This document shows, piece after piece, positions 9,518-54,201 of a DNA stretch of 64,000 bases. The DNA is from Martelella sp. NC20 (GTDB lineage Bacteria > Pseudomonadota > Alphaproteobacteria > Rhizobiales > Rhizobiaceae): positions 5,382,001 through 5,446,000 of the forward strand of contig NZ_CP054861.1 in NCBI RefSeq assembly GCF_013459645.1, written 5' to 3'. The notes under the pieces are model-generated. The model searched no databases. It was not told where the DNA came from and saw only the letters and a list, made by a program, of their open reading frames with translations. Each line of letters opens with the position of its first letter. Position 1 is the first letter of the stretch. Made by a program: the position numbers and the translations under genes.

Positions 9518-9589
9518 TGTGATCATCATGTTTAGACTCATGTGAGTCCCGCCGGGAGTGCGGGAGTGGACAGTATGGAGGAGTGCTCA

Positions 9590-11140: not shown

Positions 11141-11163
11141 CTGGCAGCAAGGAGCGGTCCATC

Positions 11164-12045: not shown

Positions 12046-12063
12046 AGCATTTCGCAGTCAGCG

Positions 12064-12099
12064 AGCATTTCCGGTGATTCCGTTCTTACCGAAAATGCT
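12064..12099. repeat. Imperfect palindrome, rhizobial-style intergenic repeat
   Basis: Twelve-base arms AGCATTTCCGGT and ACCGAAAATGCT pair with one mismatch around a 12-nt loop. It lies in the gap between the dapA-like and the first nucleoside hydrolase genes. The size and composition resemble short palindromic intergenic elements common in Rhizobiales genomes. It would fold in the mRNA and may influence the relative expression of flanking genes. Confidence 0.5.
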
Positions 12100-12135
12100 T
12101 CAGGCACGATAACTTTGAAAATGAAAGAATTCCGT

Positions 12136-15046: not shown

Positions 15047-15984
15047 TGACCCAGGAAAATCCCGTGACCGCTTCGGTTCATTCGTCAAGCGATGGCACGG
15101 CCGGAGGGCCTGCGCGTTCGCCCTTCCGTCAAGTGCTGTCGGCGCTTCTTCGCGACAAGCTCGCGCTGTCCGGCATCATCATCGTGACCACCTTTGTCCT
15201 GGCCGCCGTTTTCGCGCCCCTGATCGCGCCGCAAAACCCTTATGATCTGGCCCAGCTCGATATCATGGACGGTCGTCTGCCGCCGGGCTCCGCCAGCATG
15301 ACGGGCATGCCCTATCTGCTCGGCACGGACACCCAGGGACGGGACCTGTTCAGCGCGATCTTGTACGGATTGCGCACCAGCCTTCTGGTCGGGCTTTCCA
15401 GCGCCGCCATCGCGCTTCTGATCGGCGCTTCGATCGGGTTGGTAAGCGCCTATGTCGGCGGCCGGCTGGATTCGGTGCTGATGCGCATCGTCGATATCCA
15501 GCTCAGCTTCCCGGCAATCCTGATCGCGTTGATCTTTCTGGCCATCCTTGGTCAGGGCGTCGACAAGATCATCCTGGCGCTGGTCGTCACCCAATGGGCC
15601 TATTATGCGCGCACCGTACGCGGCTCGGCGTTGGTGGAGCGCAAACGCGCCTATGTCGACGCGGCCCGCTCGATGGCGCTGACCGACAGGCGCATCCTGT
15701 TCCGGCATATCCTGCCGAACTGCCTGCCGCCACTGATTGTTGTCGCCACCATGCGCGTCGCCTATGCGATCATGCTGGAGGCCACGCTTTCTTTTCTCGG
15801 GATCGGCCTGCCGGTCACCGAGCCCTCGCTCGGTCTTCTGATATCCAATGGCTTTGAATACCTGCTTTCCGGCGTTTACTGGATCAGCTTCTTTCCGGGC
15901 ATCGTGCTTCTGCTACTGATCGTCGGCATCAACCTGATCGGCGATTCTCTGCGCGATATCCTCAACCCCCGACGGGAGGGTTAA
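15046..15984 (+). CDS. Peptide/nickel-type ABC transporter permease (DppC-like)
   Basis: 312-residue permease with a hydrophilic N-terminus of about 35 residues, a first membrane helix (LSGIIIVTTFVLAAVFAPL), the DppC motif GTDTQGRDLFS near residue 92, and an EAA loop (AYVDAARSMALTDRR ... ILPNCLPPLI). ATG 15046 overlaps the previous stop (TGATG) and follows GAGGGGA at good spacing; an in-frame GTG one codon earlier is possible. Confidence 0.9.
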   Translation: MTQENPVTASVHSSSDGTAGGPARSPFRQVLSALLRDKLALSGIIIVTTFVLAAVFAPLIAPQNPYDLAQLDIMDGRLPPGSASMTGMPYLLGTDTQGRDLFSAILYGLRTSLLVGLSSAAIALLIGASIGLVSAYVGGRLDSVLMRIVDIQLSFPAILIALIFLAILGQGVDKIILALVVTQWAYYARTVRGSALVERKRAYVDAARSMALTDRRILFRHILPNCLPPLIVVATMRVAYAIMLEATLSFLGIGLPVTEPSLGLLISNGFEYLLSGVYWISFFPGIVLLLLIVGINLIGDSLRDILNPRREG

Positions 15985-15987
15985 ATC

Positions 15988-17808
15988 ATGACCACACCGA
16001 TTCTCTCCGTCCAGGGACTGAACGCGGCCTTTTGCGTCGATGGCGAATGGCGCAATGTGGTGCACGATGTCAGCTTCGACATCGGCGACCGGGAAACTGT
16101 TGCCGTCGTCGGCGAGTCCGGCTCCGGCAAGAGCGTGACCGCAATGTCGATCATGCGGCTTCTTTCGCCCGGCAACGCCCGGGTCACGGGGCGCATCGAT
16201 TTCGATGGCCGGGATCTGCTCTCGCTGCCGCTTTCAGAGATGCAGTCGATCCGCGGCAATCGTATCGGTATGATCTTCCAGGAGCCGATGACATCGCTCA
16301 ACCCGGTGCTGAGGATCGGCAAGCAGATCACCGAGGTTCTGGTCCGCCATCGCGGGATCTCCGAGACAGAGGCCAAGGCCGAGGCGGTGCGGCTGCTCGA
16401 ACGGGTGCGCATTCCCTCCGCGAAATCCCGGCTTTCCGAGTATCCGATGAATTTTTCGGGCGGCATGCGTCAGCGCGTGGTGATCGCCATCGCGCTCGCC
16501 TGCGATCCGAAACTGCTGATTGCCGACGAGCCGACGACCGCGCTCGACGTGACCATTCAGGCGCAGATCCTCGAACTCATCAAGACGCTGCAGGAAGAAG
16601 AGGGCATGTCTGTTCTCTTTATTACTCATGACATGGGCGTCGTTGCCGAGATATCGGATCGCACAGTGGTGATGTATCGGGGCGAGCAGGTGGAGACCGG
16701 TTCGACGGCAGAGATTTTCGCCGGCGCGCGCCATCCTTATACCCGCGCGCTGCTGTCGGCCGTTCCGCAGCTTGGCGCGATGACAGGCAGCGATCTGCCG
16801 CTGCGCTTTCCCGAAGTGGATATGGCAACGGGCGAAATCGGGGCGATCAAACCGACCGAGGATACCGTTCGCCACGACGGGTCGGCGGTCCTGAAGGTCG
16901 ACAATCTGGTCACCCGTTTTCCGGTCAAGGCCGGACTGTTGCGCAAGACCATCGGCAGGATTCATGCCGTCGAGGATGTGTCGCTGGAGCTTCGCCAGGG
17001 CGAGACGCTGTCTCTGGTCGGAGAATCCGGTTGCGGCAAATCGACGATGGGGCGATCGATCATCCGCCTGACCGATCCGGTTTCCGGGGCTGTGCATATC
17101 GCGGGCAGCGATGTGATCGGCGCAGGGAAATCGGCGCTGACCGACATTCGCCGTCAGGCGCAGATGATCTTTCAGGATCCGTTCGAAAGCCTGAACCCGC
17201 GCATGCGCATTGGCGAGGCGATTGCAGAGCCGATGCTTGCCCATGGCCTTGCCCGCAAGGCTGAGGTGCGAGGAAAGGTTGGCACGCTTTTGGAGCGCGT
17301 CGGCCTTTCTGCTGCCATGGGCGAGCGCTTTCCCCACGAATTTTCCGGCGGACAGCGCCAGCGGGTCTGCATCGCCCGCGCGCTGGCACTTGAACCGAAG
17401 CTGCTGATCGCGGATGAATCCGTCTCGGCGCTCGACGTTTCAGTCAAGGCGCAGGTGATCAATCTGATGCTCGACCTCCAGGAGAGTTACGGCCTTTCCT
17501 ATCTGTTCATCAGCCACGACATGGCGGTTGTCGAGCGCATCAGCCACCGCGTCGCGGTCATGTATCTCGGCGAAATCGTGGAGATCGGCCCTCGCCGGGC
17601 GGTGTTTGAAAATCCGCAGCATCCCTATACCCGTCGTCTGATGGATGCCGTGCCGATCGCCGATCCCGCCCGCCGCCAGAACAGGCTGATTTCCGATGAC
17701 GAGATCAAAAGCCCCTTCCATCCCGCCGACTACGTGCACCCGAAGCGGGCGTATGAACAGATCGGCGAAGGCCATTTCGTTCAGACTGAGCGGTTGATCG
17801 TGCTATGA
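15988..17808 (+). CDS. Fused double ABC ATPase (DppD-DppF type), 3' end rewritten by an IS remnant
   Basis: 606 residues with two ATPase domains. Domain 1: [39 protein letters not shown]. Domain 2: [41 protein letters not shown]. The peptide-importer C-terminal motif HPYTR occurs after each domain. The last codons (RLIVL and the stop) lie in sequence that, read on the other strand, encodes the IS6-type peptide VDHSTINR. The natural end of the gene has therefore been replaced by IS DNA, which supplies the stop. Loss of a few C-terminal residues is unlikely to abolish function. Confidence 0.92.
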   Translation: MTTPILSVQGLNAAFCVDGEWRNVVHDVSFDIGDRETVAVVGESGSGKSVTAMSIMRLLSPGNARVTGRIDFDGRDLLSLPLSEMQSIRGNRIGMIFQEPMTSLNPVLRIGKQITEVLVRHRGISETEAKAEAVRLLERVRIPSAKSRLSEYPMNFSGGMRQRVVIAIALACDPKLLIADEPTTALDVTIQAQILELIKTLQEEEGMSVLFITHDMGVVAEISDRTVVMYRGEQVETGSTAEIFAGARHPYTRALLSAVPQLGAMTGSDLPLRFPEVDMATGEIGAIKPTEDTVRHDGSAVLKVDNLVTRFPVKAGLLRKTIGRIHAVEDVSLELRQGETLSLVGESGCGKSTMGRSIIRLTDPVSGAVHIAGSDVIGAGKSALTDIRRQAQMIFQDPFESLNPRMRIGEAIAEPMLAHGLARKAEVRGKVGTLLERVGLSAAMGERFPHEFSGGQRQRVCIARALALEPKLLIADESVSALDVSVKAQVINLMLDLQESYGLSYLFISHDMAVVERISHRVAVMYLGEIVEIGPRRAVFENPQHPYTRRLMDAVPIADPARRQNRLISDDEIKSPFHPADYVHPKRAYEQIGEGHFVQTERLIVL

Positions 17809-39284: not shown

Positions 39285-41030
39285 TCAGCCGCCTCGGGCT
39301 GTTGCGGTCTCTATCAGCGCCCCCGCTTGCTTTAGCGCAGCGATGACGCGGTTCTGCCCGCGCACCAGATGTGTCCGGGCAAAGCCAAGCTTTGCCGGAC
39401 CCAGCTTGTCGAGGTCCGCTGCTGCAGAAAGGGCAGGCAGAGCCGGGATCGGGGTCGCCGGATCGTGACGGAAGCGCTGCTCACGGGTGAAGTTCAGCGG
39501 AACGAGAATGCGGGCAAGCCGCTGGATGACACTGTTGGCGGCGGCAGGCGGCACACTGCCATCGGCTATGCCGTCGTAAAAGACAGAGAGTTTCGCCTTC
39601 AGCGCTTCCGCCTCGCTGCGGACTGGCGTCAGATCGAAGCGGTCTCCGGCCTTGCCTTGATAGCCATCGATCGTCTGGAGGAATTCCTCGGCGGTCTTGC
39701 GCCAGTCAAAGGGCAATATTTCCGCATTGGCATTGCGCAGGACAGCCAGAAGATAGACCTTGATGTCACGCAGGAGAATATCCTTATCGGCGATCTCAAG
39801 CGTATCGTTTTCCGTGTGCCAGGCGATATTGCCGCCGCAGCCGCCGACCGTGTAATAGCCCTTCTCCTCGCGGGCGCGCTCAGCCATGGTCGATGACAGC
39901 ATCAGATAGCTCGTGAGCCCGATATTGTTGAAGGAATAGTCGCCCGCCCGGTGCGGACGCTCGCCCTCGGCGGTCTTGCCGGCCACTTCCGCGATCACCT
40001 CGGAAAGGAAATCCTCAGCTTCGCTCATCATGCACAGATTGATGAACTCCGTTGCCCAGCGGCAGCCGGGACTGTCGCAATTGACCGAGGCCACGCAGTT
40101 CTCGTCAAGGTCGAGCGCGAAATGATCGGCGAACCACGTCGATCCGGCATAACGGCCGGTGGAGTGGCCCGGCCACCAGCACACGCGCACCGAACGTTTC
40201 AGCTTGTCGCGGTTTTCATAGAGAACCCGCGCCATTTCGAGAAGCGAGGCGTCGCCGGTCGCGTTGTCGCCAACGCCGACATCCCAACTGTCCAGATGAC
40301 CGTGCAGCAGGATGTATTTCTCCGGCTCCTCAGTGCCTTCGATGAAGACTTCCGGCAGCATCGAGGAATACCAACCCTCCTCCATTTCGGCGAAGACAGT
40401 GACCTCCATCCCCGCCTTCGCCAGTTCGATCAGCGCATCGCCGCTTTCGCGATTGACGGCGACGGCCGGGATACGCGGTTTGCGCGGCAGGTCATCGAGA
40501 TCCGGCGTGCCCCAGATTGTCGTGCAGATGCCCCAGTGAATATCGACGCCGGGATTGATGGCGATCACCCCGATCGCGCCAAGCTCCGTGAACTGGGCGA
40601 CAAGGCCCGGATTGGCGAAACCTTCCGAGAGGACAATCTTGCCGGAAACGAGCGCAGCAAGATCGCCCGCATCCTCCACCGAGCGCTCGAACATGGTCGA
40701 GATCGCTCTCGGCTGGTTGCTCGCCACATAGACGAGTTCGCCGCAAAGGCCATCGCGCGCATCGACGCAATAGGCCGGCGGCTTGGCCCGAAAAGTCTTG
40801 CCCGAAGCCTCCACACGCGCCTTGCCGGGCAGGCTCAGATAGAGTTCGGGTTGGTGCATGGTGACGGGAACGCCGTGTTTTTCAAGGCGTGTCCTGACCT
40901 CGTTCATGCCCCGGTTCACATCGTCTGGATGCTCGCGCTTGTAGGTGGAGAAGCTTTCGACCAGTGCCCAGGGGGCGTCAAGCGACACGTCGCCAATTAT
41001 AGCGGATTCAATATCGTTCACAGCTGTCAT
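39285..41030 (-). CDS. M28-family peptidase (PA-domain-containing) with altered catalytic motif
   Basis: 581 residues. A PA-like insertion (about residues 95-215, with VSGKIVLSEG) precedes the zinc-peptidase domain. Expected ligands H245 (HGHLDSWD), D255 (VGDNATGD), D319 (VNCDSPG) and H405 (IAWHTENDT) are present. The usual Glu-Glu pair (metal ligand and general base) is replaced by G288-H289 within WWPGHSTGRYAGSTW. No signal peptide is evident, so it is probably cytoplasmic. Upstream is a GTTTTA-N5-TAAAAC site shared with the iclR-2 region. It may be a peptidase, amidase or a non-canonical zinc enzyme. Confidence 0.85.
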   Translation of the reverse strand: MTAVNDIESAIIGDVSLDAPWALVESFSTYKREHPDDVNRGMNEVRTRLEKHGVPVTMHQPELYLSLPGKARVEASGKTFRAKPPAYCVDARDGLCGELVYVASNQPRAISTMFERSVEDAGDLAALVSGKIVLSEGFANPGLVAQFTELGAIGVIAINPGVDIHWGICTTIWGTPDLDDLPRKPRIPAVAVNRESGDALIELAKAGMEVTVFAEMEEGWYSSMLPEVFIEGTEEPEKYILLHGHLDSWDVGVGDNATGDASLLEMARVLYENRDKLKRSVRVCWWPGHSTGRYAGSTWFADHFALDLDENCVASVNCDSPGCRWATEFINLCMMSEAEDFLSEVIAEVAGKTAEGERPHRAGDYSFNNIGLTSYLMLSSTMAERAREEKGYYTVGGCGGNIAWHTENDTLEIADKDILLRDIKVYLLAVLRNANAEILPFDWRKTAEEFLQTIDGYQGKAGDRFDLTPVRSEAEALKAKLSVFYDGIADGSVPPAAANSVIQRLARILVPLNFTREQRFRHDPATPIPALPALSAAADLDKLGPAKLGFARTHLVRGQNRVIAALKQAGALIETATARGG

Positions 41031-41267: not shown

Positions 41268-42050
41268 TCAGTCCACCTTCAGGAGGCCACCCACGGCGAG
41301 CTTGTCCGAGATTCGGCGGCCGGCCTCAAGTGCGGCCTCCAGATTGGCGGCGCGACGTTCCTCGTCAAGGCGCATGACGGCGCCGGCGACCGAGATCGAC
41401 GCGGTCACCGTCCCGTCCGCCGCTGTAATCGGCGCGGCCACCGAGAAAGCACCCTCGTCGAGATCATTGGCGACGATGTTGTAGCCGCTTGCGCGAATGC
41501 GCTCGAGCGTCTGGCTCAGCTTTTCCGGATCGGTGATGGTGTAGGGCGTAAAGGTTTCGAGCGGCTTTGCCAGAACCTCCTCGATTACCGCGGGTTCGGC
41601 ATAAGCAAGAAGCAGTTGCGAACTGCCGCCGGCATGCAACGGACCGAAACGGCCGGCCTGGGCGAACAGGCGCATGGAATGCCGCCCCGGCCGCGTTGCC
41701 AGCACATAGCTCTCGCTCCCGTCACGGATCACCAGATTGACGTTTTCGGAGGTGACGTCCCGCAGCCAGTCCATCACCGGACGCGCAGCGAACAACAGGC
41801 CGCCATCCTTGCCAAGGCATTCCCCAAGCACGCCGATACGGTAGCCGAGCGCATATTCGGAACGCTCCGCGTCACGCGAGACAAAGCCGCGTTCCTCAAG
41901 CGTGAACAGGATCCGGAAAATCAGGGATTTCGTCATGCCAAGCGATTTGGCAAGTTCCGTCAGGCCCTGATTGGGCCGCGCCGCAAGCGCCTCCAGCACC
42001 AAAATGGCCCGGTCGACGGCGGCGATCGTATAGTCTTTTGCCTCGGTCAC
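41268..42050 (-). CDS. IclR-family transcriptional regulator 2
   Basis: 260 residues. HTH region VDRAILVLEALAARPNQGLT, LAKSLGMTKSLIFRILFTLE; effector domain from about residue 80 (PVMDWLRDVTSENVNLVIRD) to the end. GTG 42050 is the start, preceded by AGGGGGG. It lies between the M28 gene and the permuted binding-protein gene. Both neighbouring control regions contain GTTTTA-N5-TAAAAC, so it most likely represses peptidase and transporter together. Confidence 0.9.
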   Translation of the reverse strand: MTEAKDYTIAAVDRAILVLEALAARPNQGLTELAKSLGMTKSLIFRILFTLEERGFVSRDAERSEYALGYRIGVLGECLGKDGGLLFAARPVMDWLRDVTSENVNLVIRDGSESYVLATRPGRHSMRLFAQAGRFGPLHAGGSSQLLLAYAEPAVIEEVLAKPLETFTPYTITDPEKLSQTLERIRASGYNIVANDLDEGAFSVAAPITAADGTVTASISVAGAVMRLDEERRAANLEAALEAGRRISDKLAVGGLLKVD

Positions 42051-42149: not shown

Positions 42150-42288
42150 ACTTGCGATTTCGTTTCAAGCTCCCTCGCGAGCTTTCCTTTCGAAAATACC
42201 GGCCAGACCGGCGAACGCCGTTTCCAAGATATAACCGGAAAAATCCGGACACGATAAAAAGAACCAAACCGTTCAGAGGAGAACGACC

Positions 42289-43935
42289 ATGAAATATATC
42301 GCGCGGGCTTCACTTGCCGCGTTGCTGGCGTCCACGGCGGCTTTCCCCGCCTTTGCGGGCGACCAGATCCGCGAAATCGTGCTTTTCTCCCGGCCGCAGG
42401 CCGGACAACAGGCCGAGTTCCAGTCCGTCCAGCTCATTGCCCAGGAATGGCGAAAGCTCGGTCTTGACGTCAAGGTCGAGGTCATGCCCTGGGAACAGAT
42501 GTCGAATGTCGTCTGGTACGACCGCGACGCCTGGGATGCGACCGCATGGCAGATGGTCGGGCGGCCGGAACGCTCGGACCCGGATGAGCTTCTGTTCAAC
42601 CTGTTCCACTCGACGACGGCCGAATCCGGCTATAATTTCGTCGGTTACGAGAACCCCGAATATGATTCGATCGTCGAGGCGCAACGCCGCGAGGTCGATC
42701 AGGACAAGCGCCGGGAGATGGTGTTCGAGGCCCAGGAAATCCTGAGCGCCGACCAGCAGTACATGATGCTGGTCCACCCGAAATCCACTTTCGCCTTCAA
42801 CAAGGCTGTCTTCGACCCCGAAACCGTCGTCAACCAGAGCGGCATCGGCATCAAGAACGCCTGGACCTTCATGGATATCGCCCCGCTCGGCGATCAGAAG
42901 GATATCGTTCTCAACTCCTCCGACAATGTGAAGTCGATCAACCCGCTCTATATTTCAGGCGGCGTCGACAGCTGGGTCACCGAGCTCGTTTATGACCGCC
43001 TTCTGCGCGTCGGTCCCGACGGCCTGCCCCAGCCCTGGGCGGCGGAAAGCCATGAATGGCTCGACGACACCACGATCGCGCTCACGCTGCGCCCCGGCAT
43101 GACATGGCACGATGGCGAGCCGGTCACGGCCGAGGATGTGAAATTCTCCTATGAGGCGGCCGCCAGCGAAGAGGCGCCGATGTATCAGCCATTCGCCAAG
43201 AACATTGACAGCATCGATGTCGAGGGCGATGTCGTCACATTCCACCTGAAGACCCCGCTTGCCTCCTTCCTCACCTCCACGCTCGCCAAGATCAACATCA
43301 TCCCTGAACACATATGGGGGCCGATCCTGGAGGACCTGAAGGACAAGCCGGAAAACGCCGAAAGCTATCAGGAAGACACGCCGATCGGCTCCGGCCCCTA
43401 CAAATTCACAAGCTGGACCAAGAACGAGGAGATCGTTCTGGAGGCCAATGGAGATCATTTCCACGCGCCGAAGGCCGATCGCTGGATCCTGCGCATCGTA
43501 CCGAATGCCGAGGCAGCGCTTGGCATGCTAAAGTCGGGCGAGTTGAACTTTATCGGCGAGTTCCCGGGCGACCCGCAGGTCCTCGTTGACGCGGCCGCGG
43601 AGAACGCCGATCTCGAAGCGGTGTCTACCGTCGATATCGGCTTCCGCTATATCGGCTTCAACAACCGCCGCGCGCCCTTTGATGACCCGGCCTTCCGCAT
43701 GGCGCTGTCCCAGGCGGTCAACCGCCAGCTGATCGCCAAGGCCGCCTATCGCGGCTATGCGGTGCCCTCCAACTCGGTCGTCTCGCCGGCGCTTGAATTC
43801 TGGCATGACCCGGCGGTCGAGGACTTCGCGACCGGAACCGATCTCGCCAAACAGACGCTTGAGGATGCCGGTTATACGCTTGACGGCGGCAAACTGTATT
43901 ATCCGGGCGACATCAAGGAAACGCTCGGCAACTAG
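42289..43935 (+). CDS. Circularly permuted family 5 solute-binding protein
   Basis: 548 residues, secreted (signal peptide MKYIARASLAALLAST...FAG). After the signal, residues about 28-200 carry what is normally the last part of SBP_bac_5 proteins: AEFQSVQLIAQEWRKLGLDV, FVGYENPEYDSIV (about 117-129), KRREMVFEAQEIL (140-152) and MMLVHPKSTFAFNK. The normal beginning then follows: NSSDNVKSINPLY (about 209), LRPGMTWHDGEPVTAEDV, and GSGPYKFTSW in the middle lobe. The chain ends at DAGYTLDGGKLYY, the point just before the moved segment in normal proteins. It is followed by cognate DppBCDF genes and is thus likely functional. Confidence 0.9.
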   Translation: MKYIARASLAALLASTAAFPAFAGDQIREIVLFSRPQAGQQAEFQSVQLIAQEWRKLGLDVKVEVMPWEQMSNVVWYDRDAWDATAWQMVGRPERSDPDELLFNLFHSTTAESGYNFVGYENPEYDSIVEAQRREVDQDKRREMVFEAQEILSADQQYMMLVHPKSTFAFNKAVFDPETVVNQSGIGIKNAWTFMDIAPLGDQKDIVLNSSDNVKSINPLYISGGVDSWVTELVYDRLLRVGPDGLPQPWAAESHEWLDDTTIALTLRPGMTWHDGEPVTAEDVKFSYEAAASEEAPMYQPFAKNIDSIDVEGDVVTFHLKTPLASFLTSTLAKINIIPEHIWGPILEDLKDKPENAESYQEDTPIGSGPYKFTSWTKNEEIVLEANGDHFHAPKADRWILRIVPNAEAALGMLKSGELNFIGEFPGDPQVLVDAAAENADLEAVSTVDIGFRYIGFNNRRAPFDDPAFRMALSQAVNRQLIAKAAYRGYAVPSNSVVSPALEFWHDPAVEDFATGTDLAKQTLEDAGYTLDGGKLYYPGDIKETLGN

Positions 43936-44037: not shown

Positions 44038-45015
44038 ATGTCAACTTTAAAGCCGATCGGCAGTCGCGTGCTGCAGATGATGCTGGTCCTGTGGGCCGTG
44101 GTCACCATTCTGTTTCTGATGTTCCGGCTGATGCCGGGAAACCCGATGGCGGCCTATATCGACCCGAACTTCACCCTGGAGCAGCAGCAGATCCTGATGG
44201 CTTCCTTCGGGCTCGACAAACCGTTGTGGCAGCAATATCTGATCTATATCGGTAATCTTCTGCAGGGCAATCTCGGCGAAAGCTTCACCTATCGCCAGCC
44301 GGTGGCGGATATCATCTTCCCGCTGCTGCCAAACACGCTGATCCTGACCTTCACCTCGCTGATCGTGGCCTATGCCTTCGGCATTCTGGCCGGCGCCTAT
44401 CTCGCCTGGAAGCGCGGCAACTGGGTCGAGCAGGCGGCCATTCCAGCGGTACTGACCACGCGCGCCATGCCGGAATTCTGGCTCGGCATGGTGCTGCTCG
44501 CTATCTTCTCCTTCTGGCTCGGCTGGTTTCCGGCAGGCGGCACGCGCATGGCGGGCGAAAGCTATGACAGTTATTTCGCCCTTTATACTTCGCGCGATTT
44601 CCTCGCTCATCTCGCTTTGCCGGCGCTTACCCTTGCAATCTACAGCCAGGGGCTTCCGCTTTTGCTGATGCGATCCAACATGCTGGACGTGATGAAGGAG
44701 GACTTCGTCACCATGGCGCGCATCAAGGGGCTTTCGAGCTGGACCGTGGTCGTGCGCCATGCCGCCCGCAACGCGCTTCTGCCGATCATGACCTCGTTCG
44801 CGATCGCCGTCGGATACCAGTTGCAGGGCAATGTCGTGGTCGAGACCGTGTTCTCCTGGCCGGGCCTCGGCCGCGAACTGGTGCGCGCCGTCTCTGCCTC
44901 GGACTACCCGCTGGCCCAGGGCGCCTTCCTGCTGATCGCGGTGGTGGTGATCCTCATGAACATGATCGCCGACCTTCTCTATGCCCTGCTCGACCCGAGG
45001 ATCGGCCATGCGTGA
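44038..45015 (+). CDS. Peptide/nickel-type ABC transporter permease (DppB-like)
   Basis: 325 residues: first helix MLVLWAVVTILFLMFRLMPG, periplasmic GLDKPLWQQYLIY, and an EAA loop (DFVTMARIKGLSSWTVVVRH) near residue 222 followed by RNALLPI. A 102-nt gap follows the binding-protein gene. It overlaps the next permease start by 8 nt. Confidence 0.9.
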   Translation: MSTLKPIGSRVLQMMLVLWAVVTILFLMFRLMPGNPMAAYIDPNFTLEQQQILMASFGLDKPLWQQYLIYIGNLLQGNLGESFTYRQPVADIIFPLLPNTLILTFTSLIVAYAFGILAGAYLAWKRGNWVEQAAIPAVLTTRAMPEFWLGMVLLAIFSFWLGWFPAGGTRMAGESYDSYFALYTSRDFLAHLALPALTLAIYSQGLPLLLMRSNMLDVMKEDFVTMARIKGLSSWTVVVRHAARNALLPIMTSFAIAVGYQLQGNVVVETVFSWPGLGRELVRAVSASDYPLAQGAFLLIAVVVILMNMIADLLYALLDPRIGHA

Positions 45016-45904
45016 GATTGCCTCCTCTGTTTCCAGCGGTCTTGGCCGCTTCGGCCGCGGGCTGAAATTTCCGTTGCGCGACCCTTTCGCCATTGCCGGC
45101 ATCGTCATCTATGTCGTGTTCATCCTGGCGGCGATATTCGCCCCCGATATCGCCACCCATGACCCGAACGAGATCCTCTATTCCGCCTCATACGATCTGG
45201 CCGCCGATCTCAGGCCCGGTCAGGATGGCTTCATCCTCGGCACCACCAGTCTCGGCCGCGACATCTTTTCCCAGCTTGTCTATGGCAGCCGCTCGGCACT
45301 GGTGATCGGGCTGACCGCAGCTTTCATGGTGGTGCTGATCGGCTCGCTCGTCGGTATTCTCGCCGGTTATTTCGGCGGCTGGGTCGACACGCTCTTGATG
45401 CGGCTTGCCGATATTGCCTTCGGCATCCCGTTCCTGCCCTTCGTCATCGTCATCGCCGCCTTTCTCGAACCTTCGATCTGGAACGTTGTGATCGCCATGG
45501 CGCTGGTGCTCTGGCGCGACACCGCCCGCGTCATCCGCAGCCAGGTTCTGACGCTGAGAACCCGCGGCTATGTCGAGGCGGCAAGAATCTCCGGCTCCTC
45601 CAGTCTCAAGATCATCGCCCGCCATGTCGCGCCCAACGTCCTGCCGCTCTCCTTCCTCTACGGATCGATCGCGATCGGCTGGGCGATCCTGACGGAGGCC
45701 TCGATCAGTTTTCTGGGCTTCGGTGATCCGAACTCGATCAGCTGGGGCTACATGCTGCAGGATGCCTTCGCCAGCCAGGCGCTCGCCAAACAGGCCTATT
45801 ACTGGTTCTTGCCCCCGGGCCTGTGCATCATCCTCGTCGTCAGCGCGGGCTTTTTCGTCACGCGCGGCTATGAAAACCTCCTGTTTCCGAAGTTGAGCCG
45901 ATGA
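45008..45904 (+). CDS. Peptide/nickel-type ABC transporter permease (DppC-like)
   Basis: 298 residues: N-terminal arginine-rich stretch, first helix AIAGIVIYVVFILAAIFAPD, GTTSLGRDIFSQ (DppC motif) near residue 79, and an EAA loop (GYVEAARISGSSSLKIIARH). ATG 45008 lies inside the upstream stop region with GAGG before it. It ends in a 4-nt overlap with the first ATPase. Confidence 0.9.
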   Translation: MREIASSVSSGLGRFGRGLKFPLRDPFAIAGIVIYVVFILAAIFAPDIATHDPNEILYSASYDLAADLRPGQDGFILGTTSLGRDIFSQLVYGSRSALVIGLTAAFMVVLIGSLVGILAGYFGGWVDTLLMRLADIAFGIPFLPFVIVIAAFLEPSIWNVVIAMALVLWRDTARVIRSQVLTLRTRGYVEAARISGSSSLKIIARHVAPNVLPLSFLYGSIAIGWAILTEASISFLGFGDPNSISWGYMLQDAFASQALAKQAYYWFLPPGLCIILVVSAGFFVTRGYENLLFPKLSR

Positions 45905-46917
45905 GCGAACCACTTCTTTCCGTTGACAATCTCAGCGTCTCCTACAAGGTCCCCGGTGGCCTCGTCCATGCCGTCGATGGCGCAAGCTTCGATGTGCCCG
46001 AGGGCTCGATCACCGGCCTCGTCGGTGAATCGGGCTGCGGCAAGACCACCGCCGCACGGGCGCTGACACGGGTGATGGCCGACAATGCATCGATCTCCGG
46101 CGGCAGGATCATGTTTGCCGGACAGGATCTGGCAAAGCTGTCCGAACGCCGGATGAACGCGCTGCGCTGGCGCGATATCGCCTTCGTGCCGCAAAGCGCC
46201 ATGAACTCGCTCGACCCGGTCTACACCGTCGAATACCAGCTTGCCGAAGTCTTGCGAAAACGCGGCGGCATGGGGCGTAGGGATGCACGCCGCCGCTCGG
46301 AGGAACTGTTCGACATGGTCGGCATCGATCGCGGGCGGCTGTCGGATTTTCCTCACCAGTTTTCCGGCGGCATGCGCCAGCGCGTCGCGATCGCCCTAGC
46401 ACTGGCGCTCGATCCGAAGCTGGTGATCGCCGACGAGCCGGTGACCGCGCTCGATGTCATCGTCCAGCGCCAGATCCTCGACCAGTTGAAGGAATTGCAG
46501 GAACGTCTCGGCCTTTCCGTCATCCTGGTGACCCACGACATCTCGGTCGTCGCCTATATCTGCGACCGGACGGTGGTGATGTATGCCGGCAAGGTCGCCG
46601 AGGCCGGAACCACCAGGGCCACGCTGATCAAACCCTCGCATCCCTATACGATGGGCCTCAAGAATGCCTTTCCAGACCTGACCGGGGCGGAAACCGGCGC
46701 GCTGACGCCAATCGAGGGCGCGCCGCCAAACCTTGCCGATCCGCCGCAAGGCTGCCGGTTTGCCGAGCGCTGTCCCTTCGCCGTCAACATCTGCGCCACC
46801 GAACCACCGCTTGTCGCGCTGGATGCGGCCCATCAGGTTGCCTGTCACCGCGCCGGCGAGGCCACGGAATTGCGGGCCAAGGCCGCCAGAACAGAGACAT
46901 GGGAGGCGGGTCTTTGA
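45901..46917 (+). CDS. Peptide ABC transporter ATPase (DppD-like)
   Basis: 338 residues: Walker A GESGCGKTT (about residue 42), signature FSGGMRQRVA, Walker B LVIADEPVTALD, switch THDISVV, and the peptide-importer C-terminus HPYTMGLKNAFPDL with a cysteine-containing tail (CRFAERCPF ... C ... C) of the kind that binds an Fe-S cluster or structural metal in DppD/OppD. It is separate from its partner ATPase here, unlike the two fused ATPases elsewhere in the window. Confidence 0.92.
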   Translation: MSEPLLSVDNLSVSYKVPGGLVHAVDGASFDVPEGSITGLVGESGCGKTTAARALTRVMADNASISGGRIMFAGQDLAKLSERRMNALRWRDIAFVPQSAMNSLDPVYTVEYQLAEVLRKRGGMGRRDARRRSEELFDMVGIDRGRLSDFPHQFSGGMRQRVAIALALALDPKLVIADEPVTALDVIVQRQILDQLKELQERLGLSVILVTHDISVVAYICDRTVVMYAGKVAEAGTTRATLIKPSHPYTMGLKNAFPDLTGAETGALTPIEGAPPNLADPPQGCRFAERCPFAVNICATEPPLVALDAAHQVACHRAGEATELRAKAARTETWEAGL

Positions 46918-47921
46918 TGATGTCGGGAAAAAGGAGCGATGTTCTGGTCTCGGTCTTCGAGGCAAAGCTGCACTACAAGGTCGGAAGCGCGCTGTCTGCC
47001 ATGCGCGGCCATTCGTCCGTGGTGAAGGCCGTCGACGGCGTCACCTTCGATATCCGCCGGGGCGAAAGCATCGGCCTTCTGGGTGAAAGCGGCTGCGGCA
47101 AGAGCTCCATGGGAAGGCTCCTCCTCAAACTGGAGGACGTGACCGGCGGCAATATCAGTTTCGAGGGCTATGACCTTGTCGGCATGGGTCGGCAGCGGCT
47201 GAAGAAATTCCGCTCCCAGGCGCAGCTGATCTTCCAGAACCCCTTCGATGCGGTCAATCCGCGCTTTTCCATTCGCGCCACACTGGCCGAGCCGCTGGAA
47301 AATGCCGGGATCCCCAACAACGATCGCGAAACGAAGATCATCGCAGCGCTTCAACTCGTGAAACTGCCCGATCCGGAACAGTTTCTCGACCGTTACCCGC
47401 ACCAGCTTTCCGGCGGGCAGTTGCAGCGCGTGGTGATGGCGCGGGCGCTGATCCTCGAGCCCGAATTCGTCGTTGCCGACGAGCCAGTCTCGATGCTCGA
47501 CGTTTCCGTGCGCGCGGGCGTGCTCAATGTGTTTCGCGATGTCCGCGACCGACTGGGCCTGACGGCGATCTATATCAGCCACGATCTGGCCCTGGTGCGC
47601 TATGTCTGCGAGCGCACCATCGTGATGTATCTCGGCCGGATCATGGAAGACGGATCGACCGAGGCCATCGTGCGCGAACCGCTGCACCCCTATACCAAGG
47701 CGCTCGTTTCCGCCGTGCCTGTGCCCCATCCCGACCAGAGCCACGCTCCGCTGCCGATCGGACGCGGTGCGCCGGATCCGCGCAATCCGCCCTCGGGCTG
47801 CGTTTTCCGCGACCGTTGCCCCAAGGCCTTTGGGCGCTGCGCATCGGACGTCCCGAAGCCGCAGTCCGTCGGCAACCGGCTTGTCGCCTGTCATCTTTAC
47901 GACGGGGAGACCGGCGCATGA
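46917..47921 (+). CDS. Peptide ABC transporter ATPase (DppF-like)
   Basis: 334 residues: Walker [10 protein letters not shown], signature [11 protein letters not shown] (note L instead of R after Q), Walker [13 protein letters not shown], switch SHDLALV, and the C-terminal Cys tail [17 protein letters not shown] 46917 overlaps the upstream stop and follows GGGAGGCGGG; ATG 46920 is equally possible. Its stop overlaps the next gene by 4 nt. Confidence 0.92.
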
Positions 47922-48925
47922 GGGCGGCCTATTACGAGACGACCGGCACCGCCGGCGACGTTCTGAAACTGGGCGATCTCGCCGATCCCGCGCCCGGGTC
48001 CGGCGAGGTTCTGGTGGCCGTCAGGGCTTCCGGCATCAATCCGGCGGATGTGAAGCGACGGGCCGGATGGCGCGGCGCGGGCATGGATCACCCCTTGATC
48101 ATTCCCCACACCGATGGCGCGGGCGAGATCGTCGCCGTCGGAACCAATGTTGACGCCGGTCGCATCGGCGAGCGCGTCTGGCTCTGGAACGCCCAGGGCG
48201 GCTATCGGCAGATAGGCCGCGCCTTCGGCACGGCCGCAGAACTGATCGCCATCAACGCGCGCCAGGCCGTCCGCCTGAACGAGCATCTGACCTTTGCGGA
48301 GGGCGCCTGCCTCGGCGTTCCCGCCATGACGGCCCATCGCGCCGTGTTTGCCGATGGCAGAGTAACCGACAAGACGGTGCTCGTCAGCGGCGCGGCCGGC
48401 GCGGTCGGCCATTTCGCCGTGCAGATGGCAGCGCTCGACGGCGCCCGCGTGATCGGCACCGTCAGCAATGAGGCGTCCGCCCTCCACGCGAAAGACGCCG
48501 GCGCCGAGATCACCATCAACCGCACACAGGAGAATGTGGCGGCCCGGATACTGGATCTGACGGATGGCGCGGGCGTCGACCGGATCATCGAGGTCGATTT
48601 CGCCGCCAATGCCGCTCTCGCCGCCGCCGTCCTGAAGCCGAACGGCACGATCGCCGCTTATTCCTCTAGCAGCAATCCAGAGCCGGTGCTGTCCTATTAC
48701 GGCTTTGCTTCCCTCGGCGCCAATCTGCGCTTCATCCAGGGCTTTGCCATCCCCGAGGGTGCGCGCCGTGCCGGTGAGGAGACAATCGATGCGCTTGCAG
48801 GATCAGGCCGGTTGAAGGTCGCCATCGGCGCCACATTTTCCCTTGCCGACATCGCCCTTGCCCATGAACGCGTGGAAGCGGGCGGGCTTGGCAATGTCGT
48901 CGTCTTTCCCGAAACGCCGGCGTGA
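47918..48925 (+). CDS. Quinone oxidoreductase-like MDR-family enzyme
   Basis: 335 residues of the zinc-independent medium-chain dehydrogenase/reductase family: N-terminal GroES-like domain (GEVLVAVRASGINPADVKRR) and a Rossmann domain with VSGAAGAVGHFAVQMA near residue 150 (NADPH binding). No catalytic-zinc ligands are seen. It is coupled by ATGA to the transporter ATPase, so it belongs to the same pathway, probably reducing an enone or quinone-like intermediate. The substrate is unknown. Confidence 0.85.
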   Translation: MRAAYYETTGTAGDVLKLGDLADPAPGSGEVLVAVRASGINPADVKRRAGWRGAGMDHPLIIPHTDGAGEIVAVGTNVDAGRIGERVWLWNAQGGYRQIGRAFGTAAELIAINARQAVRLNEHLTFAEGACLGVPAMTAHRAVFADGRVTDKTVLVSGAAGAVGHFAVQMAALDGARVIGTVSNEASALHAKDAGAEITINRTQENVAARILDLTDGAGVDRIIEVDFAANAALAAAVLKPNGTIAAYSSSSNPEPVLSYYGFASLGANLRFIQGFAIPEGARRAGEETIDALAGSGRLKVAIGATFSLADIALAHERVEAGGLGNVVVFPETPA

Positions 48926-48964: not shown

Positions 48965-50788
48965 ATGTCAGACACTATGAATGAAAAACGGGATGGCGGC
49001 CCACCGCTCTGCGATCCCGTGACGCTCGAGATCATCCGTGGCGCGGTGGCCGCCGCCCAGGCGGAAATGGAAGCCCTTCTGGAGCGCACGGCGATTTCCG
49101 CCTTCATCCGCGAGAAGAAGGATTTCTATACCGCTCTCTTCGATGCGGACGGCGTGATGGCGGTCGGCTCGATGGTGCCGATCTTCGGCGACATGACGAC
49201 GCCGGTGCTGGAGAAATTTCCGGCCGAGACGATGCAGCCCGGCGATCTCTACTGGTATAATGATTGCTATGGCTCGCGCGGCGCGGTCTCCCATTCCAAT
49301 GACCAGGTGCTGCTTGCGCCCGTCTTCAAGGATGGCAGGCTCTCGGCCTTCGTGATGAGTTGGGCGCATTTCGCCGATATTGGCGGCATCCATCCGGGCT
49401 CGATCAGTCCCGATGCCACGGAGATATTCCAGGAAGGCATCATCGTGCCGCCGACGAAGCTGACCTCTGCGGGCGTCACCAACGAGGCCGCGCTTGAAAT
49501 CTTCCATCGCAATTCGCGCTTTCCCGACCAGAGCATCGGCGACATGCGCGCACTGATGGCGAGCGTCGATCTCGGCGTACGGAGGATCGGTGAGATTGTC
49601 GACCGCTTCGGCGCGGATGTTCTCGCCGACGCGCTTTCCCAGCTGCTGGTGCGTACCCGCAAGCTTGTGCGCGAGAAACTGGCCGAAACATTCGACTACG
49701 GCACCTATTCCTTCACCGATGCGATCGATACCGACGGTCATGGCAACGGCCCGTTCAAGATCCGGTTTTCACTGACGCGCGAAAAGACCGATGACGGCGA
49801 TGACCGGTTCATATTCGACGCCACGGCAACCGACGACCAGGCTCCCGGCCCGGTCAACTTCCTGATGAACCGGGGCGTACCCGGCATGGCGCTCGGTCTG
49901 TTCTATCTCGGCGGCGATCCGGCCCAGGTCTGCAATGCCGGCGGACCGAACGCTCTCGATGACGTGAGGCTTCGCGCTGGCTCGCTGCTGCAGCCGGAAT
50001 TTCCCGCACCGCTCGGCATGCGCGGCCTGACGACGATGCGGGTGCTTTCGGCGATCAACGGGCTCGTCAATGTCGCCGGCGGCAAGGCGCCCGCCGCCAA
50101 TTCCGCCTATGTGATCACGATCATGCGCGGCAAGTTCCGCGACGAGGACGACGGCCTGCTGAAGCGTTTTCTGCTCGCCGACGGCATCGGTGTCGGCTAT
50201 GGCGCAAGGCCGGATGCCGACGGCATCGACGCCGTTTATTTCGTCGCCCAGGAAAATTATCCTGTAGAATTTCTCGAGGTCGGCTATCCGGTGCGCCTCC
50301 GGCGCTACGGAATTGTCGAGAACTCCGGCGGTGCGGGGAAATTCCGCGGCGGCTGCGGCATCATCCGCGAGTATGAAATCCTCGCCGAGGACATGATGCT
50401 GGCGGTCCGGATCGACAGCGTGAAGAACCCGCCCTGGGGCATTCACGGCGGCATGGGCGGCGGCAGCGGCCGCGTCACCGTCAATCCCGGCCTTGAGAGC
50501 GAGAGGGGCCTGAAACCGCTTTCCGACGGCAACCGGCTGATCAAGGGCGACATTCTGCGCATGGAAACCGGCGGCGGCGGCGGCCACGGCCACCCCTTCG
50601 ACCGACCGGAGGAAAAGGTGCTGGCCGATGTGCTCGGCGGCTTCGTCAGCGCCGACGCGGCCGAACGGCTCTACGGCGTCGTCATCCGCGACGGCGCGAT
50701 CGATCACGCCGCAACAGCGCGGTTGCGCTCCAGCCGCCCCGAGACCAAAGCCTTCCATCGCCAGGAGTATGTCGATGTCCTTGCCTGA
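48965..50788 (+). CDS. hyuB: Hydantoinase B/oxoprolinase family protein (HyuB-like)
   Basis: 607 residues matching the HyuB family throughout: CDPVTLEIIRGAVAAAQAEM near residue 18, GDLYWYNDCYGSRGAVSHSN near residue 95, FADIGGIHPGSISPDATEI, TGGGGGHGHPFDRPEE near the C-terminus. HyuA/HyuB enzymes hydrolyse cyclic amides such as N-methylhydantoin or 5-oxoproline with ATP, or carboxylate ketones. Overlap with hyuA (14 nt) implies one complex. The family's substrate range is wide, so only ring-opening or carboxylation is suggested. Confidence 0.88.
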   Translation: MSDTMNEKRDGGPPLCDPVTLEIIRGAVAAAQAEMEALLERTAISAFIREKKDFYTALFDADGVMAVGSMVPIFGDMTTPVLEKFPAETMQPGDLYWYNDCYGSRGAVSHSNDQVLLAPVFKDGRLSAFVMSWAHFADIGGIHPGSISPDATEIFQEGIIVPPTKLTSAGVTNEAALEIFHRNSRFPDQSIGDMRALMASVDLGVRRIGEIVDRFGADVLADALSQLLVRTRKLVREKLAETFDYGTYSFTDAIDTDGHGNGPFKIRFSLTREKTDDGDDRFIFDATATDDQAPGPVNFLMNRGVPGMALGLFYLGGDPAQVCNAGGPNALDDVRLRAGSLLQPEFPAPLGMRGLTTMRVLSAINGLVNVAGGKAPAANSAYVITIMRGKFRDEDDGLLKRFLLADGIGVGYGARPDADGIDAVYFVAQENYPVEFLEVGYPVRLRRYGIVENSGGAGKFRGGCGIIREYEILAEDMMLAVRIDSVKNPPWGIHGGMGGGSGRVTVNPGLESERGLKPLSDGNRLIKGDILRMETGGGGGHGHPFDRPEEKVLADVLGGFVSADAAERLYGVVIRDGAIDHAATARLRSSRPETKAFHRQEYVDVLA

Positions 50789-52817
50789 AATCACGAGCGC
50801 CCTTTCGATCGCCGTCGACATCGGCGGAACCTTTACCGACATCTCGCTTCTGGATCGGCAAAGCGGCAGGGTCTGGCGCGCCAAGACGCCAAGCATTCCC
50901 TCCGACCCGTCAGCAGCCTTCCTCGATGGCATCCGCCTTGCCCTCGACGATGCGGGCCTTGAGGCATCGCGACTGACGCAGGTGCTGCACGGCACGACGG
51001 TCGCCACCAACATGATCCTTGAGGGCAAGGGTGCCAGAACTGCCCTTATCACCACGCGCGGCTTCCGCCACGTGCTGGAGATCGGTCGCCAGGATATTCC
51101 GCGCAAGGCCAATCTCTACAATTGGGTCAAGCCCGAGCGCCCGGTACCGGCCGCCCGCGTTCTCGAGATCGACGAACGCATCGGCCCCGGCGGCGCGGTG
51201 CTCGAACCGCTTGACGAGAAGAGCGTATGCCGGGCAGCCGAGGCGATCCGCGCCATGGACGTCACCGCCGTCGGCGTCTGCCTCCTGCATGCTTTCGCAA
51301 ATGCCGACCATGAAAAACGTGTCGTCGAGCTTCTGCGAGAAGCGCTTCCAGACCATGCCATCACCTGTTCGACCGATATCCTGCCGGTTGTGCGCGAGTT
51401 CGAGCGCTCGTTGACCACGGTGCTGAACGCCACCGTCATGCCGGGCGTGACCTCGTATGTCGAAAAGCTGGAACAGCGCCTTGCCGGCGAGAAGGTCGCG
51501 GCCCCACTGCTCCTGATGCAATCGAATGGCGGTGTCGCCGGTGCGGCAGCCATTCGCCAGGCGCCGGCGCTGACCGCGCTTTCAGGGCCCGCCGCCGGCG
51601 TTGTCGGCGCGAGGGCCGCGGCTTCGGCTTGCGGCATCAAGGATATCATCACCGTCGATATCGGCGGCACCAGCGCCGATATCTGCCTGATCAAGGACGG
51701 CGAGATCGGGCTGACCCAACATGGCCGCATCGGCGAATGGCCTCTGCCGCTTCCCATGGTCGACATGGTGACGATCGGCGCGGGCGGCGGATCGATCGCG
51801 AAGGTGAGCGATGGCACGTTGACCGTCGGCCCGCAAAGCGCCGGTGCAAGGCCGGGACCCGCCGCCTACGGCAATGGCGGCAAGGAGGCGACGGTGACCG
51901 ATGCCCATGTGGTGCTCGGCCATCTGCCGGCGAAACTGCTCGGCGGGCGCATGGCGCTGGATGTCGAAGCGGCCTCGGCCGTTGTTGATGCCGGCATTGC
52001 TGCGCCCTTGAAGCTTGGACGGGAGGCGGCGGCGCGGGGCATTCTCGCCATCGTCGACAGCCACATGGTTGGCGCCGTCCGCGTCGTCTCCGTCGAGCGC
52101 GGCCATGATCCGCGCGATTTCACCCTTGTGCCTTTCGGCGGCGCCGGGCCGCTGCATGGCTGTGCACTGGCGGAGCTTCTGGGCATCCGTCAGGTGATGA
52201 TCCCGACCGCGCCCGGCGTGTTGTGCGCCGACGGCCTTCTGGCCGCCGACCTCAAGGCCGAATTCAGCCGCACCATGCCGAAGGCCGGCGCGATCGATGT
52301 GGAAAGCGCCAGATCCATCATCGACGGTCTCGCGAAACAGGCCGATGACTGGTTTGAGGAAGAGGGCGTTCCAGCGGAAGCCCGCGAGAAACAGGCGATT
52401 GCGCTTCTACGCTATCACGGCCAGGGCGGCGAACTGGCCGTTTCCTGGGATGACGATGCCGAAATCGTGGAGGCCCGCTTTGGCGAGGCCCACCGGTCGC
52501 TCTACGGTTTCACCCTCGATGCGGCAATCGAACTGGTAACGCTTCGGGTCGAGGCCAGAGGCTGTGTCGAGGCTCCCGAGATCGCCGTCCTTCCGCCGCA
52601 ACAAGGGGCGATCACGCCTTATGACCATGTGCCGCTGCACTTTCAAAGCGGCACCGAGAATGTTCCCGTCATCGATCGGGCAACGCTCGGCGCGGGCGCG
52701 CGCTTCGAGGGGCCTGCTATCCTCACCCAGCTTGACACCACCACCGTCGTCAAACCCGGCTGGCGCGCAAGCGTCGAAGCGTCCGGCGCCGTCATTCTGA
52801 ACCGCAAGGAGGGCTGA
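50775..52817 (+). CDS. hyuA: Hydantoinase A/oxoprolinase family protein (HyuA-like)
   Basis: 680 residues with the actin-like ATP site: SIAVDIGGTFTDISLLD (about residues 10-26), GTTVATNMILEGKGARTALI near residue 75, a second phosphate motif TVDIGGTSADICLI near residue 294 and SGPAAGVVGA. ATG 50775 is preferred over 50769 because AGGAG is then about 8 nt away. It is the ATP-dependent subunit partner of HyuB. The M20 peptidase gene starts 4 nt after its stop. Confidence 0.88.
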   Translation: MSLPEITSALSIAVDIGGTFTDISLLDRQSGRVWRAKTPSIPSDPSAAFLDGIRLALDDAGLEASRLTQVLHGTTVATNMILEGKGARTALITTRGFRHVLEIGRQDIPRKANLYNWVKPERPVPAARVLEIDERIGPGGAVLEPLDEKSVCRAAEAIRAMDVTAVGVCLLHAFANADHEKRVVELLREALPDHAITCSTDILPVVREFERSLTTVLNATVMPGVTSYVEKLEQRLAGEKVAAPLLLMQSNGGVAGAAAIRQAPALTALSGPAAGVVGARAAASACGIKDIITVDIGGTSADICLIKDGEIGLTQHGRIGEWPLPLPMVDMVTIGAGGGSIAKVSDGTLTVGPQSAGARPGPAAYGNGGKEATVTDAHVVLGHLPAKLLGGRMALDVEAASAVVDAGIAAPLKLGREAAARGILAIVDSHMVGAVRVVSVERGHDPRDFTLVPFGGAGPLHGCALAELLGIRQVMIPTAPGVLCADGLLAADLKAEFSRTMPKAGAIDVESARSIIDGLAKQADDWFEEEGVPAEAREKQAIALLRYHGQGGELAVSWDDDAEIVEARFGEAHRSLYGFTLDAAIELVTLRVEARGCVEAPEIAVLPPQQGAITPYDHVPLHFQSGTENVPVIDRATLGAGARFEGPAILTQLDTTTVVKPGWRASVEASGAVILNRKEG

Positions 52818-52821
52818 AACC

Positions 52822-54201
52822 ATGACTGCAACCGGACTTGAACCCGTCTTCGCCCATATCGATGCGCATGCCGATGATTTCGTCGCGCGGGTGATGGAAT
52901 ATGTCAGCCACCCCTCGATCAGCGCCCAGAACAAGGGGATCCGCGAGGTCGCCGACATCCTGGTCGCAAAGCTTTCCGCCATGGGCTTTGAGGCCGAGAC
53001 CATTGCCACAAGGAACCATCCGATGGTGCTCGGCCGCTGGGAGAAGAAACCCGGCAAGCCGACCGTGCTGCTCTACGGCCACTACGATGTGCAGCCGCCG
53101 GAACCGCTTGGCGAATGGAACAACCCGCCCTTCGAGCCGACCATCCGTGACGGTCGCATCTATGCCCGTGGCATCGGCGACAACAAGGGTCAGCATTTCG
53201 CGCAGCTGATGGCGATCGAGACGCTGCTGGAAACGCGGGGGGAACTGCCCTGCAACGTGCTCTTCCTGCTGGAGGGCGAGGAAGAAATCGGCTCGCCGCA
53301 TATCGCCGAATTCGTGACCGAACATGCCGGGAAGCTGAAGGCCGACCTGGTGATCACCTCAGACGGTCCGCTGCATGAGAGCGGGCGGCCGATCATCACC
53401 TTCGGCGTGCGCGGCGTCGCCTCCTTCGAACTTCGCTGCCGCACGGCGCGGCGCGATGCCCATTCCGGCAATTTCGGCGGCGTGATGCCGCATCCGATCT
53501 GGAAACTTGTGCACCTGCTTTCAACGATGAAAAACGAGGCAGGCGAGATCACCATCGAGGGCATCAACGAACCGGTCATTCCCCCGACCAATATGGAGCG
53601 CGAGGCCGTCAGCCGTCTGCCGCTGGATCTTGAGGCGATCAAGGCCGATCTCGGCATCACCGAACTGGATGCTCCCGTTGATCGTGCCTATTACGACCGG
53701 CTGATGTTCCACCCGACGCTGACGATCAACGGTTTTCACAGCGGCTATGGCGGCGAAGGCACAAAAACGGTGTTGCCCTGCGAGGCGATCGTCAAATGCG
53801 ATATCCGCCTCGTCGAGCCGCTGACGCCGGACTACGTTTTCGACAAGGTGAGGGCCCATGTGGAGCGCCACGCGCCCGATGTCGCGTTCATCCCCGCAAA
53901 CGGCATGCTGCCGTCCAAGACGCCGATGGACAGCCCGTTTGCGGCAACCATCGAACAGGCGATTATCGACGCGCGCGGCGAAGCGCCTCTGCTCTACCCG
54001 ACCGTCGGCGGCAGCCTGCCGGATTACGTTTTCACCAAGATCCTGAAGACGCCGGCCTTCGTGGTGCCCTACGCCAATGCCGACGAGGCCAACCACGCGC
54101 CGAACGAAAACCTCGAGATCGAACTCTTCATCAAGGGCATCAAGACCGGTGCGGCGCTTCTGACGCGGATCGGCAGGACGGAAGCCGCTTCGGCTTCCTG
54201 A
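52822..54201 (+). CDS. M20-family metallopeptidase (CNDP dipeptidase-like)
   Basis: 459 residues. Di-zinc site: His-Asp in LYGHYDVQPPEPLGEW (about residue 88), Asp in ARGIGDNKGQ (canonical DDKG is GDNKG here), Glu pair in LEGEEEIGSP (about 152), His in RRDAHSGNFGG (lid domain start) and His in ADEANHAPNEN near the C-terminus. The family cleaves dipeptides or N-carbamoyl amino acids. Directly downstream of hyuBA, it would suit hydrolysis of the linear product of ring opening. No signal peptide; cytoplasmic. Confidence 0.88.
   Translation: MTATGLEPVFAHIDAHADDFVARVMEYVSHPSISAQNKGIREVADILVAKLSAMGFEAETIATRNHPMVLGRWEKKPGKPTVLLYGHYDVQPPEPLGEWNNPPFEPTIRDGRIYARGIGDNKGQHFAQLMAIETLLETRGELPCNVLFLLEGEEEIGSPHIAEFVTEHAGKLKADLVITSDGPLHESGRPIITFGVRGVASFELRCRTARRDAHSGNFGGVMPHPIWKLVHLLSTMKNEAGEITIEGINEPVIPPTNMEREAVSRLPLDLEAIKADLGITELDAPVDRAYYDRLMFHPTLTINGFHSGYGGEGTKTVLPCEAIVKCDIRLVEPLTPDYVFDKVRAHVERHAPDVAFIPANGMLPSKTPMDSPFAATIEQAIIDARGEAPLLYPTVGGSLPDYVFTKILKTPAFVVPYANADEANHAPNENLEIELFIKGIKTGAALLTRIGRTEAASAS

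Follow-up and report, generated by a model that had tools for sequence, protein, structure and literature searches.

Cluster C (family 5) solute-binding proteins (SBPs), such as DppA, OppA, AppA and NikA (PF00496), are the closest described relatives of the protein analysed here, which resembles them in its profile match, its fold class, its signal-peptide-like start and its DppBCDF partners, and differs from them in that the segment forming the last ~175 residues of their chains comes first and the N-lobe part is continuous. The E. coli dipeptide importer DppABCDF has the same subunit set as the system described below and, according to the available sections of its description, residues D436 and R383 of DppA touch the amino and carboxyl groups of the dipeptide, as well as the scoop loop of DppB (PMC12136057). 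Natural circular permutation among SBPs has been described in other clusters. TpMglB-2 (Tp0684), proposed as 'cluster Bc', is a natural circularly permuted SBP with a family of the same order; as far as the accessible part of the article goes, it is a type I/cluster B sugar binder permuted within the N-lobe, with an added fourth lobe crossing, and its authors suggest that the permutation is an adaptation to membrane anchoring (PMC4990184). The glycine-betaine binding proteins related by permutation are another natural case, mentioned in the accessible text of the CPSARST paper; they are small proteins of a different cluster (PMC2395249). In the open-access literature, no permuted cluster C SBP was found described, no paper contained both 'OppA' and 'circular permut', and no paper was found on the gene neighbourhood of the present protein; most subscription papers were outside this search, and an earlier report is possible. 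The CIRPIN preprint, checked for six terms only, gave nothing on transporters under these terms (PMC12667903).

The window analysed is a stretch of 64,000 nucleotides from Martelella sp. NC20 (contig NZ_CP054861.1, positions 5,382,001 to 5,446,000). The open reading frame at 42289..43935 (+ strand) codes for a protein of 548 residues, with a ribosome-binding-like sequence, GAGGAGAA (42276..42283, + strand), located 5' of the ATG. A putative Sec-type signal peptide was read by eye at residues 1-23 (42289..42357, + strand), with putative cleavage after ...AFA, in agreement with the first-pass annotation of this window; the AlphaFold2 pLDDT is below 50 at residues 1-3 and 5-20, which lie in this putative signal peptide. 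SBP_bac_5 (PF00496) is the sole Pfam family matched by the protein at E <= 0.001, with 243.2 bits against a curated cut-off of 32.4, and membership of the type I/cluster B sugar-binding proteins was not found. The SBP_bac_5 match consists of two stretches, the best one aligning query residues 247-537 with positions 2-286 of the 368 positions of the profile.

The homologous blocks are in swapped order. On AppA (PDB 1xoc), query residues 205-533 aligned with residues 23-348 and query residues 46-170 with residues 376-495. In BLASTP against the normal-order paralogue of the same window (residues numbered from 9587), a first block aligned query residues 197-543 with 17-373 (E 1.3e-28) and a second one query residues 48-177 with 376-502 (E 2.2e-7). 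The usual family 5 order, with the start of the N-lobe first and the end of the C-lobe and the return strand last, is not the order of this chain. Its moved segment (residues 25-199, 42361..42885, + strand) is homologous, by PDB, BLASTP and segment profile matches, to the C-terminal part of normal members. It is followed by a new linker of ~residues 197-204 (42877..42900, + strand), placed from the secondary structure of the model and the rotation scan, which unites the old C- and N-ends. Residues 204-541 (42898..43911, + strand) correspond to the first two thirds of a normal chain, a homology seen in Pfam, PDB, BLASTP and structure alignment, and the final residues 542-548 (43912..43932, + strand) form the new C-terminus. 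Since the chain stops 5-15 residues past the last aligned position, there is no second C-lobe at the C-terminus. The first-pass annotation had correctly traced the moved segment to the C-terminal region of the normal paralogue, but its start was set too late: the cut maps to ~residue 375 of the paralogue and not to 443. The two motifs that it had named, GYENPEYD at residues 119-126 and KRREMVFEAQEI at residues 140-151, are both present, and it is only their counterparts in the paralogue that sit past 443.

A profile of residues 25-202, made from 34 members, found 27 distinct sequences in PDB, in each case in the C-terminal part of the chain; their names are those of peptide, dipeptide, nickel, heme or similar binding proteins, with two uninformative. 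On its own, the segment also matched the NikA, DppA and Opp4A NCBIfam profiles, close to their ends and with scores far under the whole-protein cut-offs. An unrelated leading domain, with a normal C-lobe kept at the end, had been named as the alternative to a permutation; such a domain was rejected, as the segment profile matches the C-terminal parts of solute-binding proteins in PDB, and the chain ends early. The segment carries the motif GRPERSDPDE (residues 91-100, 42559..42588, + strand; alignment of the segment profile), in which E94 aligns with D436 of DppA (5f1q numbering). E94 is conserved in 96/101 permuted proteins, R95 in 100/101 and P98 in 101/101; where normal-order E. coli DppA has D436, the amino-group contact in the available part of its description, the permuted proteins have a conserved Glu and then a conserved Arg. 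The counterpart of R383 falls just ahead of the aligned block and has no position assigned in the protein, so that a ligand other than an ordinary dipeptide is conceivable.

Classification of 136 proteins from the examined loci gave 101 permuted, 32 normal and 3 other proteins, the last being two overlapping ORFs of locus L150 that resemble a single permuted gene with a broken frame, and one of locus L030 with an internal stop. The scores of the N-part did not overlap, with 272 bits for the weakest permuted protein vs 152 bits for the best normal one, on a profile trained on permuted proteins with the four weakest outside the training set. A normal-order profile was then built from those 28 of the 32 normal-order proteins that have 480-600 aa, and 47 permuted proteins, thinned from the 101, were scored natively and after rotation. 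Rotation lifted the best single-domain score in 47/47 proteins, with medians of 203.2 bits before and 277.4 bits after; coverage of the profile reached 85% or more in 44 of the rotated sequences vs none of the native ones. When the rotation point of the window protein was shifted six residues at a time, the score was highest at residues 193-199. The comparison with a tandem duplication of a normal family 5 protein, which had been proposed as a check, also came out as expected of a permutation, phmmer against a head-to-tail copy of the normal paralogue giving a single domain (query residues 101-536) that crosses the join. Because of the swapped blocks and the rotation test, the protein was filed as a permuted variant and not as an ordinary member. 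By these comparisons of BLASTP, Pfam and PDB blocks and of rotated sequences, ORF 42289-43935 is confirmed as a circularly permuted family 5/cluster C SBP, as had been claimed from the first reading.

The AlphaFold2 model of the whole protein is a confident single fold (pLDDT 88.0, pTM 0.85); for the moved segment by itself the model was poor (pLDDT 61.5, pTM 0.37). Structural alignment by Foldseek and VIA-align took in residues ~198-542 only, because both keep chain order; both parts of the family 5 chain are covered by the sequence matches. By homology and with the domain borders of OppA, the cut would lie inside the C-lobe. With these borders, the rotation would turn the normal arrangement round, the N-lobe becoming one continuous stretch and the C-lobe being split in two. 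The signal peptide and both ends of the mature protein would then belong to the C-lobe, and the number of lobe crossings would still be two. By sequence, the new ends open where one strand normally precedes the next, and the old ends are joined via the short linker. The chain would fold into the ordinary two-lobed Venus-flytrap shape. An altered hinge, which had been suggested as a consequence of the permutation, found no support, because the cut lies by homology in the C-lobe and the chain would thus still cross between the lobes twice. Compared with TpMglB-2, as described in the accessible part of its article, the present protein belongs to cluster C and, by homology and with the OppA borders, would have its cut in the C-lobe and gain no crossing.

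In the SBP tree, calculated on the unswapped part, one branch (SH-aLRT 97) parted the 47 permuted from the 32 normal rows, and in a tree of DppB, the permeases beside permuted SBPs (33 after thinning) were parted by one branch from those beside normal SBPs (26, of which 23 come from the genome of the window) with an SH-aLRT of 99. The two trees were quickly made and have long branches among the normal rows, most of which come from one genome; they are compatible with a single origin and joint inheritance with the permease, short of proof. With a rotated query, no normal-order sister was found in the protein database among the best 120 of 2708 matches (E <= 0.001); 117 of these 120 were shared with the listing of the native query, and the 3 new ones aligned over 66-67% of the query. 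The same kind of query against 278 genomes of the class, with at most five candidates scored per genome, gave 0/17 listed matches (E <= 1e-45) spanning the join. A small chance is left to the permutation having arisen repeatedly at the same permissive site, the permuted proteins then not being one lineage: the cut is at a turn between strands, where new ends may be tolerated, normal-order proteins are narrowly sampled and the branch support is SH-aLRT only, but one change is enough on the SBP tree as well as on the DppB tree, and the rotated query of the class genomes gave no join-spanning match within the scope just given. The permuted proteins are probably an old permuted subclass of cluster C SBPs of single origin, serving its own importer lineage, in which the ancestral gene would have been duplicated and then trimmed, probably in one ancient event within a lineage of transporters that retained its own permease. 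That they amount to a distinct permuted class of importers, a 'cluster Cc', seems doubtful to us.

Four genes of a cognate transporter follow on the + strand: a DppB-type permease (44038..45015, Pfam BPD_transp_1), a DppC-type permease (44981..45904, Pfam BPD_transp_1 and OppC_N) whose ORF overlaps dppB and whose start codon is uncertain, a DppD-type ATPase (45901..46917) and a DppF-type ATPase (46899..47921), both with Pfam ABC_tran and oligo_HPY. The BC permease and DF ATPase genes noted in the first-pass annotation were thus recovered by Pfam, and they recur in the loci of relatives. They are followed, on the same strand, by a zinc-type alcohol dehydrogenase/quinone oxidoreductase-like enzyme (MDR; 47900..48925, an NCBIfam match below every cut-off), a hydantoinase B/oxoprolinase (48965..50788, Pfam), a hydantoinase A/oxoprolinase (50766..52817, Pfam) and an M20-type dipeptidase (52822..54201, NCBIfam), and on the - strand, ahead of the SBP gene, Pfam identified an IclR-type regulator (41268..42050) and an M28 peptidase with a PA domain (39285..41030). 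Among 80 loci of relatives, homologues of DppB were present in 77, DppD in 77, DppC in 76 and DppF in 73, together with the M28 peptidase in 59, hydantoinase/oxoprolinase B in 50 and A in 49, the IclR regulator in 49, the MDR enzyme in 43 and the M20 dipeptidase in 15; each homologue was assigned to the best of ten references wherever it lay in the locus, and some counted neighbours therefore belong to other operons, and some loci are on short contigs. The deep members likewise adjoin DppBCDF-type genes, where contig ends allow.

Taken together, it is very likely that the gene encodes a working, circularly permuted cluster C SBP of two-lobed fold, which would be exported and would feed DppBCDF, with a probably single, ancient origin. 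A peptide-like, N-acyl or pyroglutamyl-type solute would bind between the lobes and would pass to the neighbouring DppBC permease, with DppDF driving. Our guess from the neighbours is that the substrate is such a peptide-like, N-acyl or pyroglutamyl compound, imported and then degraded inside the cell; by eye, neither the M28 nor the hydantoinase B protein begins with a signal-peptide-like stretch. It is very improbable that the fold was kept by a protein no longer feeding the importer, for example a sensor or a storage protein with DppBCDF as mere neighbours: transport is read from gene context, and an IclR regulator and catabolic genes adjoin, but DppBCDF homologues recur beside permuted SBPs, also in the deep members, and DppB is co-inherited. 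Elsewhere in the window, positions 9542-17808 hold a normal-order Dpp-type operon, in which the ORFs at 11164-12045, 12115-13095 and 13092-14075 resemble by eye a DapA-type aldolase and two nucleoside hydrolases and therefore suggest a non-peptide substrate for that system.

Of 7998 candidates scored in the database search, 2317 were homologues at E <= 0.001. The best 120 of them are 547-553 aa long and, over 95-100% of the query, 67-95% identical to it; their names do not mention a rotation. From 164 relatives found in a scan of named genomes, 80 were kept, and a single match spanned the permuted order in 80/80; the homologues of the same order for which a profile search had been proposed therefore exist, and the arrangement is widely common to a subfamily. 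The nearest relative found is from Martelella radicis (96%). Going by their titles, the kept relatives are mostly from Alphaproteobacteria, with others in Trueperaceae (L073 and L075), Bacillota (L101), Armatimonadetes (L102), ANGP1 (L107) and Rubrivivax (L109), and the family thus extends over several bacterial phyla. Order and cut are unchanged in five distant members; in the N-lobe part, three of these are 34-35% identical to the window protein. One rival reading, that the gene is in decay or is the product of a recent fusion or an assembly error, with C-terminal and N-terminal fragments of two SBPs united and no working product, was rejected as hardly conceivable: a lone genome would give the same picture and order-bound searches yield two broken matches, but the order recurs in all 80 kept relatives, the best 120 homologues align over the lengths just given, distant members have the identical cut, the frame is open and the residues are strongly conserved.

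The distribution of the permuted family is patchy, in counts that are samples and lower bounds and include the window's own or the starting genome. In the class, the A2 search found it in 11/289 genomes (at most 11 candidates scored per genome) and the A5 search in 7/142. Over the whole phylum, A2 gave 1/398, the window's own gene only (at most 8 candidates scored per genome), and 0/16 other same-family genomes among those listed matched. In the phylum of L101, 17/43 genomes passed the cut-off of A5: 15 with matches across the junction, including the previously known G655, G656 and G658, and 2 with matches only to the half common with normal proteins; in that of L075, A5 gave 3/61, one previously known. 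Family 5 SBPs are very numerous, with 35 SBP_bac_5 matches in the genome of the window alone; one gene there has the end-of-profile piece upstream of the start piece, and 27/28 of the own-genome ORFs compared are not permuted. Permuted SBPs give two broken matches in order-bound searches and may be mistaken for fusions or fragments. This natural permuted family, with its fixed cut, also offers a ready experiment on chain order vs folding, export and docking of a two-lobed protein, for which the normal-order paralogues of the same cell serve as controls.

The start of the window protein is plain Sec-like. A twin-arginine-like pattern, a simple one that gives false positives, was found at the start of 34/101 permuted proteins, the flagged starts including L124, L123, L086, L095-L097, L099, L100, L103-L105 and L108, and from these sequences the export route seems to vary within the permuted family. 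In the genome of the window, an ordinary-order SBP_bac_5 gene (G000:C1:138611-139661) is apparently split into two overlapping frames, matching profile positions 1-250 and 248-347. At L101:14657-16408, a normal-order family 5 SBP adjoins the permuted system, both orders being present in one genome region.
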